This document shows positions 15,768 through 33,477 of a stretch of DNA of 43,132 nt, piece by piece. The notes beneath the pieces were generated by a model. The model was not told the origin of the DNA. It did not search any database and worked only from the letters and a program-made list of their open reading frames with translations. The position numbers and the translations under genes are program-made. Every line of letters begins with the position of its first letter. The first letter of the stretch is position 1. The stretch is from Acidimicrobiia bacterium. GTDB lineage: Bacteria; Actinomycetota; Acidimicrobiia; Acidimicrobiales; UBA8592. Where the stretch lies: NCBI GenBank assembly GCA_030431575.1, contig JAUIIS010000008.1:1-43132 (forward strand), read 5' to 3'.

Positions 15768-16543
15768 ACGACATCATCGTCAACGCAGATGCCACCGAAG
15801 TAGGTGGCACCGGAAACGTCATGATCGACGTCACCAACGTCGACAAGTACTTTGGCGACTTCCAGGCGCTCCATGGCATCAACATGAAGGTCGGCGAGCA
15901 AGAAGTGGTGGTCGTTATTGGGCCCTCGGGCTCTGGCAAGTCCACACTCATTCGCTGCATCAACCGTCTCGAACGCCACGACCGCGGCAGCATCGTGGTC
16001 GATGGTGTGGAGCTGTCCGACGACATTCGCAACATCCAGGAGATCCGGCGCGAAACCGGCATGGTCTTCCAGAGCTTCAACTTGTTCCCGCATCTGTCCG
16101 TGCTCGAGAACATCACGTTGGCGCCACGCAATGTTCGCAACGTGCCCAAAGCTGAGGCAGAGGCCACGGCTATGGAGTTGCTAGAACGCGTCAAGATCCC
16201 CGATCAAGCCCGCAAGTTCCCTGGGCAGCTTTCCGGTGGTCAGCAACAGCGTGTGGCCATCGCTCGATCCTTGGCCATGAAGCCAAAGGTCTTGCTCTTT
16301 GACGAGCCCACTTCAGCGCTCGACCCGGAAATGATCAAAGAAGTGCTCGACACTATGAAGGATCTGGCCAACGAAGGCATGACGATGATCTGTGTCACCC
16401 ACGAAATGGGCTTTGCTCGAGAGGTGGCCGACCGCGTAGTGTTCATGGCTGACGGCGAAATTGTCGAAGTGGGTACCCCAGAGCACTTTTTCACGAACCC
16501 TCAGGAGGAGCGCACCCAGCTCTTCTTGTCCCAAATCCTCTAG
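15764..16543 (+). CDS. Amino-acid ABC transporter ATP-binding protein (AapP/GlnQ family)
   Basis: Walker [26 protein letters not shown], Walker [35 protein letters not shown] overlap with upstream permease. Confidence 0.95.
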
Positions 16544-16597
16544 TCCATAGTGTTGTAGCTGCCTGGGCCTTACCTGGGCACAAAGAACGCCTCTTGC

Positions 16598-16644
16598 AAG
16601 GACCTGCGTCGAGACCTGCCACGGTCGACTCGGCGCAGGTTCTT
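16598..16644 (+). terminator. Candidate terminator hairpin after the ABC transporter operon
   Basis: AAGGACCTGCG ... CGCAGGTTCTT (11-bp stem with one G-U pair) just after the ATPase gene. Confidence 0.45.
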
Positions 16645-16679
16645 GTGGTTTTGGCGCATGTTGACCCCGTTGCCGTGGG

Positions 16680-17792
16680 CTAGCCGAACAGGGTGTGGAC
16701 TTCGGTGCGTTGGGCGTCGGGGTTGGCGGCGACGTTGGTTGAGTTGGCGGCACCGCCGAAGTCGTTGAGGCCCAATGCTTCGCGGTCTGCGGCCGATACG
16801 GCGAACATGCCTTCGTCGAGTTGAATGCCAGTGCCATCGGCAACCCGAACGAGACCGTTGAACGCAGCGATGGTTGCGCCGGCCTCTTGGGTGGCGGCCT
16901 CGCCGATTTCGTTGACCAACCGCAGGCGGGTGGCCTCGATACGCGAGGCAGCCTCAGGAGTGACGCTTGGTTGGCCACAAGATGCGGACTGCACCGCGTT
17001 GGTAAAGGCAAGCAGAGCCGCGCTGGCCGGCACACCCAGGTCTGCCTCGAAGTTGGAGTCGACGGCCGCAGCCAGGTCGACGGTGAGGTTTGCTAGTTCG
17101 CTGCTCGCACGGAGCAGCGTGGTGTGCGAAGACGTTCAATAGAAACACTCGTTGAGCGCTGTGGTTCTGGTGGCGACGAGCTCAGTTTGAGGGCGAGTCA
17201 GCGCCTGGTCCCATGCCAGATTCATGAACTCGGGTCCGCGTGAATAGTGGCTGGTTACCAGCGAACGCCACGTGGCGTTCGTGACGGGCACCATGCTGAG
17301 CGTTCGGCTGACGTTTGCCAGTGTCTTATCGGTGCTTTGGCTGACCCACGCCCCGATATCGCCGATGTCTTTTGGGCGCTCGCGTGCGGGATCTCCTGGG
17401 ACAGGTTCAGGGATGGCCACGGTCTGGAGACCCATGGCGAGGCGATACCTGTCGATCACCATCGCAATGGCAACCACCCCCACCAGTTCGGTGTAGGTCT
17501 CCTCGCCGAGTGCTGCGATCTGAATGTCGGCCCAGGTGCGCGTCAGGCGACCGGGGTCCGAGGCGACGCGATGCACAACTTCGACCGCGGCTGCCGAAAG
17601 CTCAGCAGTTGCGGGATGGTCGCCAACAACCGCGTAGGGCGACAACGCCGCCTTACGTTCGAGATCAAGCGGGTTTGTCGCGGCTTGCCGCGCCTGGTCC
17701 CAGGCGTCGCAGCGCTGCGCCGCGGTGAGCCAGTCGCCTGGCGCAGCTAAGCGCTCGACAGCGGCGAGTTGGTCGGCATCAATCGCATTCAT
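16680..17792 (-). CDS. AhpD-like (carboxymuconolactone decarboxylase/alkylhydroperoxidase fold) selenoprotein candidate; TGA at 17136-17138 read as Sec219
   Basis: ORFs 17136-17792 (218 aa, ending ...TTALNECFY) and 16680-17033 are in the same frame. The 34 codons between 17135 and 17034 are open (TSSHTTLLRASSELANLTVDLAAAVDSNFEADLG). Combined: ...LVATRTTALNECFY-U-TSSHTTLLRA..., i.e. the AhpD CxxCxxxH motif with the second Cys replaced by TGA. Confidence 0.85.
17099..17119 (-). promoter_or_regulatory. bSECIS-like stem-loop
   Basis: Minus strand, 17 nt after TGA: CGCTGCTC-CGTGC-GAGCAGCG, perfect 8-bp stem with a 5-nt loop that has G at position 2. The loop lies 25-29 nt after the UGA. Confidence 0.7.
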
Positions 17793-17894: not shown

Positions 17895-18881
17895 TCAGTC
17901 CCAGAAACGGAGTTTGGCCCACAGGCGCCGCAGTGGTCCCGCTGCCTCGCGCAGCTTGGCGCGGCCCGATGCCGAAAGTGGCCCTTGAAGCTGGCCGAGT
18001 TTGGCAGAAAGCGACGGGGAGAACGCGTCGAGCCGCTCGCGTTCGGCTTCGGACAAGGTAAGCGCCGCCGCGGCCACATTCTCACGGAGGTGGCTAAGCG
18101 ATGAGGTGCCCGGGATGGGCAACATAACGGGGGAGCGACCCAACAGCCACGCCAGGGCCGCTTGTGCTGCAGTTGCATCGTGGGCGGCGCCAACCTCGGT
18201 AAGGGCCGGTGTGCCTTTGGCATACCCGAAGCCTTTGAGCGGGAAGTAGGGGAGGAACGCCAACCTGTCGCCTTCGCATGCTCGCAGGACATCTTCGTTG
18301 TGGCGATCGTGAAGGTTGTACGGGTTTTGCACCGACACAATGTCCACAATCTCCTGGGCCTCTCGCAGCTGTGCCAAGTCGACGTTCGACAAGCCCACAA
18401 AGCGGACTTTGCCTTCGGTTTGGAGGTCGGCCAGCGCGCCCACCGATTCGGCAAAGGGGACATCGGGGTCGGGTCTGTGGAGCTGGTAGAGCGGCAACGC
18501 ATCTACGCCTAGGCGACCAATGCTCGCTTCGGCTGCTGCTTTGAGGTGTTCTGGCCGCCCATTTGGCTCCCAAGAGCCATCGGGTAAGCGAACCAGACCG
18601 CCCTTGGTTGCGAGGACGAGGTCGTCTGTGTAGGGGAACAGCGCCTCTGCGATGAGGTCCTCGTTGACGAACGGCCCGTAGGCGTCGGCGGTGTCGATGA
18701 AGTTGACACCCATATCGACGACCGTACGGAGCACGTCGATAGCGCCGTCGCGATCGGTCGGCGGACCCACCACGCCAGGTCCACAGAGTTGCATGGCCCC
18801 GTAGCCCAACCGCCGCACATTGGCCTCGCCGCCTATCAGGATTGTTCCTGCCGTGGCGTCAGTTAGCTGCGGTTGGTCCAT
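17895..18881 (-). CDS. Aldo/keto reductase
   Basis: RRLGYGAMQLCGPGV, GVNFIDTADAYGPFVNEDLIAEAL, LYQLHRPDP, VRFVGLSN, LLGRSPVMLPIPGTSSLSHLREN. Confidence 0.93.
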   Translation of the reverse strand: MDQPQLTDATAGTILIGGEANVRRLGYGAMQLCGPGVVGPPTDRDGAIDVLRTVVDMGVNFIDTADAYGPFVNEDLIAEALFPYTDDLVLATKGGLVRLPDGSWEPNGRPEHLKAAAEASIGRLGVDALPLYQLHRPDPDVPFAESVGALADLQTEGKVRFVGLSNVDLAQLREAQEIVDIVSVQNPYNLHDRHNEDVLRACEGDRLAFLPYFPLKGFGYAKGTPALTEVGAAHDATAAQAALAWLLGRSPVMLPIPGTSSLSHLRENVAAAALTLSEAERERLDAFSPSLSAKLGQLQGPLSASGRAKLREAAGPLRRLWAKLRFWD

Positions 18882-19089
18882 CCAACGGTTGTATCAGCCC
18901 AACGCTCAGATCCGGCGACTATCGCGATGTCGCTTTGAGCGGTGGTCCCTGGGCGTCTTGCCCAGATCGGCTGCGCCGCTGTCCAACCGGGAACCGGTTT
19001 TCAGAAATGGTATGGTGTCGTACAATCTGGATACACGCCACCGCATGTGTGTGGTGTTACGACCCCCGCACCTCAAGAGGCAGGTAGCT

Positions 19090-20337
19090 ATGAGCGCCCT
19101 CACCGCAGAAGAAGTCGAAGCCGAAGCTGGCGCATGGATTGACGCCAACTGGGATCCAGAACTCACCGTTGGTGAGTGGTGGCAAATGCTGGCCGACGAA
19201 CGCTACGCGCACCCTATGCTCCCCGAAGAAGCTGGCGGCCGCGGCTGGTCTCGAGATCTTGCCCAAGCCGTTCTCCGGGCCTTGGCCTCGCGCGATGCGT
19301 TGGGCCCTCCAACGGGTCTGGGCATGATGCTTGCTGCTCCGACCATTGCCGCGCACGGTACGCCAGAACAGATCGAGCGCTACGTCAAGCCGATCATCAA
19401 TGGCCAACAGGCTTGGTGTCAGCTGTTCTCAGAGCCAGGCGCCGGGTCCGACCTGGCCGGCCTCCAAGCACGAGCCGAACAAGATGGCGAAGAGTGGATC
19501 GTCAATGGCCAAAAGGTGTGGACCTCTGGCGGTCAGGTAGCCGACATGGGCATGCTCATTGCTCGCACCGACCCCGACCTGCCCAAGCATCAAGGCATCA
19601 CCTACTTCGCCTGCGAGATGCACCAACCCGGTGTTGACGTTCGTCCACTCACTGAGATGACCGGTCGAGCCATGTTCAACGAGGTGTTCCTCACCGACGC
19701 TCGCGTGCGTGACGATGCCATGATCGGCGGCAAGCAGAATGGCTGGCGCGTCGCCAACACCACGCTCATGTTCGAACGCTCCCATTTGGGCTCGGGAACC
19801 GTGCCGGTGGCCACCGCTGGAGCTGGCACTGTGCAGGGCCACCTGCATCGCCGCGCTGGCGACTTCACTACTCGCAAAGGCGGCGACCAGGGCGTTCCAC
19901 CGATTGGTCCCGTGCTATTCGACCGGCTGGTCGAGCTGGCCAAGAAGCTTGGCCGCACCGACGACCCGGTGCTGCGCGACGACCTCATGAAGCTCTACTC
20001 GCTAGTCACGGTCAACCGCCTCAACATGTTGCGAGCCAAGACCGGCCAAGGCCGCACCGGCGGCGAAGGCAACATTGGCAAGCTGATGGTCAGTGAGCTG
20101 TTCCGTCAGTTCCGTGAAATCGGCGGAAGCGTTATTGGCGCCGACGCCATGCTGGCTGGACGCGATTCGACCACCGCACCGTGGGTTGCTGAGATAACGC
20201 TGTTCTCGCCTGGCCCCGCCATTTATGGCGGCACCGACCAGGTGCAGCGCAACATCATTGGCGAGCGTGTGCTTGGGCTCCCCAAAGAGCCTGGTCCCGG
20301 CAAGGAAACCCCCTTCAAGGACCTTCCAAAGAACTGA
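19090..20337 (+). CDS. Acyl-CoA dehydrogenase
   Basis: WCQLFSEPGAGSDLAGLQARAEQDGEEWIVNGQKVWTSG; AIYGGTDQVQRNIIGERVLGLPKEP. Start at 19090 (MSALTAEEVEAEAG) rather than 18820, which overlaps the AKR gene. Confidence 0.92.
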   Translation: MSALTAEEVEAEAGAWIDANWDPELTVGEWWQMLADERYAHPMLPEEAGGRGWSRDLAQAVLRALASRDALGPPTGLGMMLAAPTIAAHGTPEQIERYVKPIINGQQAWCQLFSEPGAGSDLAGLQARAEQDGEEWIVNGQKVWTSGGQVADMGMLIARTDPDLPKHQGITYFACEMHQPGVDVRPLTEMTGRAMFNEVFLTDARVRDDAMIGGKQNGWRVANTTLMFERSHLGSGTVPVATAGAGTVQGHLHRRAGDFTTRKGGDQGVPPIGPVLFDRLVELAKKLGRTDDPVLRDDLMKLYSLVTVNRLNMLRAKTGQGRTGGEGNIGKLMVSELFRQFREIGGSVIGADAMLAGRDSTTAPWVAEITLFSPGPAIYGGTDQVQRNIIGERVLGLPKEPGPGKETPFKDLPKN

Positions 20338-32334: not shown

Positions 32335-33477
32335 ATGGCCGTGACCGAAGAACAGATCATCGATGCCCTACGCCCTGTCGAAGACCCCGAGCTGCACCGC
32401 AGCATCGTCGACCTCGGCATGGTCAAAGAGGTCGTCATCGTCGACACCGATGTGACCATCCAGATAGCGCTCACCATTGCTGGGTGTCCGCTGCGCAACG
32501 AAATCGATGGCCGCGTCAAGGGTGCTGTCGAGGCGCTCGATGGTGTCAGCACCAGCGCGGTCGACTTCACGGTCATGAACGACGAAGAGCGAGCCGCAGT
32601 GCGCCAGCTCGTCCACGGCGACCCCGCAGCTACCGCAGGTAGTCAGCAAGCGCATGGCCACGCCGAGGGCCGCGAGATCCCCTTTGCCGACCCGTCCTCC
32701 AAGACCCGAGTCTTGCTAATTGCATCGGGCAAAGGTGGCGTGGGCAAGTCTTCGGTCACGTCCAACTTGGCGATTGCCTTGGCCAATCGCGGCAAGAGCA
32801 CCGCCATCATTGACGCAGACGTCTGGGGATTCTCGATCCCACGCATGCTGGGTATCGACCGGGCCCCGGTGGTCATCGACGAGATGTTGATCCCGCCCGA
32901 GGTGCACGGCGTACGTGCCATCTCCATGGGTTTCTTCGCCAAAGAAGACCAGCCCGTTATCTGGCGCGGCCCCATGCTGCACAAGGCGTTGGAGCAATTC
33001 CTCACTGACGTCTACTGGAACGACCCCGACTTCGTCCTCATCGACTTGCCGCCCGGCACCGGGGACATTTCGCTGTCGCTGGCACAGTTCTTGCCACGCG
33101 CCGAGGTCTACGTTGTCACGACCCCGCAGCCAGCAGCGCAGCGCGTTGCCCAACGTGCCGCATTCATGGCCGACACCGTCAACCTTGAGGTCAAGGGCAT
33201 CATCGAGAACATGAGCTGGTTCACTGGCGACGACGGGAAGCAATACTTCTTGTTCGGTTCCGGTGGCGGCAAGGAACTCGCAGATCGCTTAGAAGTACCT
33301 TTGCTGGGTATGGTGCCGCTGACGCCCGAGCTTCGCGAAGGCGCCGACTCGGGCAACCCGCTCGTGGCAACCAATCCAAACAGCGAAGCTGGGAAAGTCT
33401 TTGCGGCGATGGCCGAAACCATCGACGTGGAACTTGCCCCAACCCGTCGCTACCACCCAGAACTCAAAGTCATCTAA
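32335..33477 (+). CDS. Mrp/ApbC-type P-loop ATPase with N-terminal MIP18-like (DUF59) domain
   Basis: IASGKGGVGKSSVTSNLAIALANRG, DADVWGFSIPRMLG, VLIDLPPGTGDISLSLAQ; N-terminal ALRPVEDPELHRSIVDLGMV. Confidence 0.94.
   Translation: MAVTEEQIIDALRPVEDPELHRSIVDLGMVKEVVIVDTDVTIQIALTIAGCPLRNEIDGRVKGAVEALDGVSTSAVDFTVMNDEERAAVRQLVHGDPAATAGSQQAHGHAEGREIPFADPSSKTRVLLIASGKGGVGKSSVTSNLAIALANRGKSTAIIDADVWGFSIPRMLGIDRAPVVIDEMLIPPEVHGVRAISMGFFAKEDQPVIWRGPMLHKALEQFLTDVYWNDPDFVLIDLPPGTGDISLSLAQFLPRAEVYVVTTPQPAAQRVAQRAAFMADTVNLEVKGIIENMSWFTGDDGKQYFLFGSGGGKELADRLEVPLLGMVPLTPELREGADSGNPLVATNPNSEAGKVFAAMAETIDVELAPTRRYHPELKVI

Follow-up and report, generated by a model that had tools for sequence, protein, structure and literature searches.

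An in-frame TGA at the second CxxC position probably encodes selenocysteine in an AhpD-related NF041238 protein of an Acidimicrobiia bacterium

The window (the whole 43,132-nucleotide stretch of Acidimicrobiia DNA analysed here) contains, at positions 16680–17792 of the minus strand, what is very probably one protein-coding gene, a member of the NF041238 family, in which UGA 219 is decoded as selenocysteine (Sec) through SelB and an RNA hairpin. The frame starts at ATG 17792, comprises 371 codons, and ends at TAG 16680–16682; its sole interruption is the TGA at 17136–17138, and, read through, it specifies 370 residues with Sec at residue 219. The motif around the TGA reads ...TTALNECFY-U-TSSHTTLLRASSEL..., such that the TGA occupies the second CxxC position, and the CFYUT motif is present as CFY-U-TSSH. 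The initial annotation had described two open reading frames (17136–17792 and 16680–17033) that share a frame and are separated by a single TGA, with 34 open codons between them and 151 intact codons between the TGA and the stop; the coordinates are exact, and both counts hold on the minus strand. Gene callers would cut this gene in two at the catalytic residue, and reading it as one corrects the annotation.

Taken by itself, the length of the open frame says little, because the DNA is 62–64% GC and a 240-aa open reading frame (16313–17035) is also present in another frame of the same strand. Read-through is placed above chance by the presence of TGA at the same codon in many divergent relatives and by an independent NF041238 match of the segment that follows the TGA (profile positions 289–355, E 2.3e-15). 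The complete read-through protein scores 327.6 bits against NF041238 (AhpD_rel_CFYUT; full name in NCBIfam, "alkylhydroperoxidase-related (seleno)protein"), compared with an equivalog cut-off of 175, and the match spans residues 6–345 of the protein and positions 7–355 of the 357 in the model. Pfam CMD (PF02627) is matched at residues 191–234 with 25.8 bits against a cut-off of 23. The protein shares the CFYUT motif, the Sec position, and the length class of NF041238; its one notable difference from most relatives is an 11-residue insertion in its C-terminal half. NF041238 is listed as a known CxxU selenoprotein in a 2026 review, which also identifies the AhpD-related protein with the earlier "hypothetical protein 1" of the Sargasso Sea metagenome survey (PMC13188914); therefore, the family has already been described. 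The gene is a further member of a catalogued bacterial selenoprotein family and is ordinary within selenoprotein biology. The initial annotation proposed a selenoprotein related to AhpD in which Sec takes the place of the second Cys of CxxC; this is borne out by the PF02627 and NF041238 matches, the TGA in relatives, the one homologue with Cys at that codon, and the hairpin described below.

The TGA is conserved in relatives. A first survey of 41 genomes of the same family and order, in which the count was limited to matches covering the site with a long frame, revealed one TGA, always at CFY-U, in 18 of 18 full-length relatives besides the window's own. A profile search of 296 genomes of the class revealed one TGA in 48 of 49 copies. 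The sole TGA-free copy among these 49 (L144:3471–3518, genome G278) has TGC (Cys) at the codon and lacks the hairpin; having lost both TGA and hairpin, this locus is a natural Sec-to-Cys comparison. A scan of named genomes, using an alignment with X at the Sec site and a search pattern ending at CFY, before the TGA codon, yielded 336 relatives, and TGA is present in all of the best 80 of the 336, which come from genomes labelled Acidimicrobiia, Myxococcota/Deltaproteobacteria, Gammaproteobacteria, Acidobacteria, and others. The same contig scan with C in place of U found zero relatives, and a search for a plasmid-borne relative found none. In Acidimicrobiia, and likewise in the genomes with Myxococcota/Deltaproteobacteria, Gammaproteobacteria, and Acidobacteria labels, the family is nearly always seen in its Sec form.

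In comparisons with relatives, the two halves of the protein that the TGA separates show equal conservation (for example, 0.38 before and 0.40 after it with L127, and 0.33 and 0.34, respectively, with L111), and the half after the TGA contains no further stop or frameshift. The equal conservation of the two halves argues against translation normally terminating at the TGA. The initial annotation had named homologues ending at ECFY as an observation that would count against a selenoprotein; the relatives continue past ECFY, with a conserved downstream half.

A bacterial SECIS hairpin, CGCUGCUC-CGUGC-GAGCAGCG, is located at 17099–17119 on the minus strand and comprises an 8-bp stem and a 5-nt loop (17107–17111) with a conserved G at 17110. 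The hairpin alone has a folding energy of −13.3 kcal/mol, the UGA-to-loop distance is 24 nt, and the G is at loop position 2 and is followed by U. The bSECIS model specifies a loop of 3–9 nt, a stem of 4–16 bp, a G in the first two loop positions, and 16–37 nt between UGA and loop (PMC13188914), and the hairpin lies within these loop, stem, loop-G, and spacing constraints. Since the hairpin region, folded as a single sequence, is not significantly more stable than shuffled sequences (z −1.2), the case for a SECIS rests on conservation, in the form of covariation and codon choice. Specifically, 84% of the cells from 42 distinct sequences are paired at the hairpin, compared with 30–51% in slid controls; the top stem pair changes from C-G to U-A in relatives, and the loop G is invariant. 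Some outer stem pairs vary freely, leaving a conserved core of ~4 pairs. The SECIS of the family is also visible in codon choice: of 124 genes, 123 use CTC or CTT for the Leu of the 5′ arm, compared with 47% at other sites in the genes, and all 121 that encode Ser in the 3′ arm do so with AGC or AGT, compared with 32% at other sites.

The active-site stretch (E204-x11-C216-x-Y218-U219-x3-H223; 17124–17183, minus strand) contains five residues, E204, C216, Y218, U219, and H223, that are invariant in 32 of 32 sequences. Their spacing is that of the AhpD proton-relay residues Glu36, Cys48, Tyr50, Cys51, and His55 of Pseudomonas aeruginosa PA0269 (PMC3141380), with Sec replacing the second Cys. 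The spacing is likewise identical in Mycobacterium tuberculosis AhpD, and the Sec position corresponds to Cys133 of AhpD and Cys51 of PA0269; unlike both proteins, the protein described here has Sec in place of that Cys, and its overall sequence similarity to them is low. It is also about twice as long as PA0269.

An AlphaFold2 model of the protein is all-helical and confident (pLDDT 90.5, pTM 0.91), and places the active site in a two-helix hairpin (residues 200–213 and 217–233). The PDB structures that best match its fold are AhpD-like proteins; these matches have a probability near 1, but their E-values are weak (0.04 and above) and their coverage is partial. A profile search matches PDB 2pfx, which has CFYC at the aligned site (E 4.7e-13), and the TIGR01926 match, in which only the C-terminal half aligns, reaches 31 bits against a cut-off of 81.8. 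The peroxidase-related proteins represented by TIGR01926 and PDB 2pfx, 2prr, and 6k40 share the AhpD-like domain, but have Cys rather than Sec at the site and align only in the C-terminal half. Comparison of the two halves of the protein with hhalign gives no more than a weak hint of internal duplication (E 5e-4, probability 31%).

In the proposed mechanism, SelB carrying Sec-tRNA would recognise the hairpin just 3′ of UGA 219, and Sec would be inserted at this codon, yielding a 370-residue, AhpD-like, all-helical oxidoreductase with a predicted active site of Glu204, Cys216, Tyr218, Sec219, and His223. The Sec219 selenolate would most likely attack a peroxide or disulphide, the presumed substrate, and Cys216 would most likely resolve Sec219 after the attack. 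The protein is likely to be a peroxide- or disulphide-handling enzyme.

The search for sel genes suggested in the initial annotation had a divided outcome: SelB was recovered through its C-terminal 47 residues, and SelA, tRNA-Sec (selC), and SelD were not found in the window's genome, a draft that is 83.4% complete and comprises 518 contigs. The best tRNA-Sec-like matches in the genome were rejected as ordinary tRNAs (Ser, Leu, Trp, and Tyr). A TIGR00475 search gave one match in this genome, below the family cut-off, a poor result probably due to alignments that stop short of the C-terminus together with a strict E-value limit. Using SelB of a same-family genome (G002) as query, the last 47 SelB residues were found at the first bases of contig C463, with 77% identity; the fragment is intact to its stop codon and is followed by the genes that adjoin selB in G002, in the same order. 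The presence of a SelB C-terminus at the edge of a contig in conserved gene order indicates that the genome has a selB gene, truncated here by a gap in the assembly, and, once this fragment had been found, true absence of Sec machinery from the genome was mostly dropped as an explanation.

Assembly gaps are the likeliest explanation for the missing sel genes, and we infer that SelA, SelC, and SelD are in unassembled DNA. Contig C6 (4.8 kb) carries MrpORP and FxsA, which are neighbours of selA and selB in G011 and of selB in G002; the open frame that follows them and runs to the contig end reads like an ABC-type ATPase, and the assembled part of C6, a contig collinear with the sel regions of relatives, contains no sel genes. 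Contig C202, syntenic with the selC region of G002, ends without tRNA-Sec. SelB and tRNA-Sec (canonical, anticodon TCA) are present in most same-family genomes, and a SelD that itself has one TGA is present in over half; at least one sel gene is also missing in same-family genomes with similarly incomplete assemblies. Most of the relatives' selD loci (L091, L093–L102, L104, and L105) have one in-frame TGA each, and SelD in most of these loci is probably also a selenoprotein. G002 (92% complete) encodes SelB, tRNA-Sec, and a SelD with a TGA, but gave no match to the selenoprotein described here. Nothing in the base composition suggests that the contig is of foreign origin: the window is 61.7% GC, compared with 59–65% in other stretches of the genome, with tetranucleotide correlations of 0.94–0.98.

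The sel genes missing from the draft, together with the syntenic positions on C6 and C202 that lack them, would be expected of a lineage that is losing Sec decoding, in which translation would now stop at UGA 219 and the gene would recently have become a pseudogene. We consider this very unlikely, given the intact end of SelB and its similarity to the SelB of a relative, a post-TGA half that is as conserved as the pre-TGA half and free of further lesions, a hairpin that retains its full 8-bp stem, and the same kind of gap in comparably incomplete assemblies of the family. It is similarly improbable that the Sec codon and SECIS have been kept while the Sec pathway is incomplete or replaced, with UGA 219 serving as a site of non-standard decoding or a regulated stop.

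The failure to find a canonical tRNA-Sec in this genome is also consistent with decoding of UGA by another route, for example by a tRNA that reads UGA as Cys or as some other residue. However, the best candidates in the genome are ordinary tRNAs, same-family genomes carry the canonical tRNA-Sec, and the presence of a SECIS hairpin and of a SelB fragment favours ordinary Sec insertion, making such decoding highly improbable. A sequencing or assembly error that converted a Cys codon (TGC or TGT) to TGA has almost no likelihood, since the same TGA is present in more than 100 independently assembled relatives and is accompanied by a SECIS hairpin. Decoding of UGA 219 as Sec through SelB and the hairpin is the reading that we prefer.

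An aldo/keto reductase gene (17895–18881, minus strand; PF00248, E 1e-59; NF007695) is located ~100 bp upstream of the selenoprotein gene on the same strand, and no relative of this reductase was matched beside the selenoprotein in related loci. In 14 same-family loci (L003–L016), an acyl-CoA dehydrogenase gene is directly upstream of the selenoprotein gene on the same strand. The encoded dehydrogenases are 32–37% identical to that of the window (18820–20337, plus strand), which is nearby on the strand opposite to the selenoprotein gene, with the aldo/keto reductase gene in between. Elsewhere in the window, a second MrpORP/ApbC-like ATPase (32344–33390, plus strand) is 47% identical to a G002 protein and has a closer homologue (70%) on contig C6.
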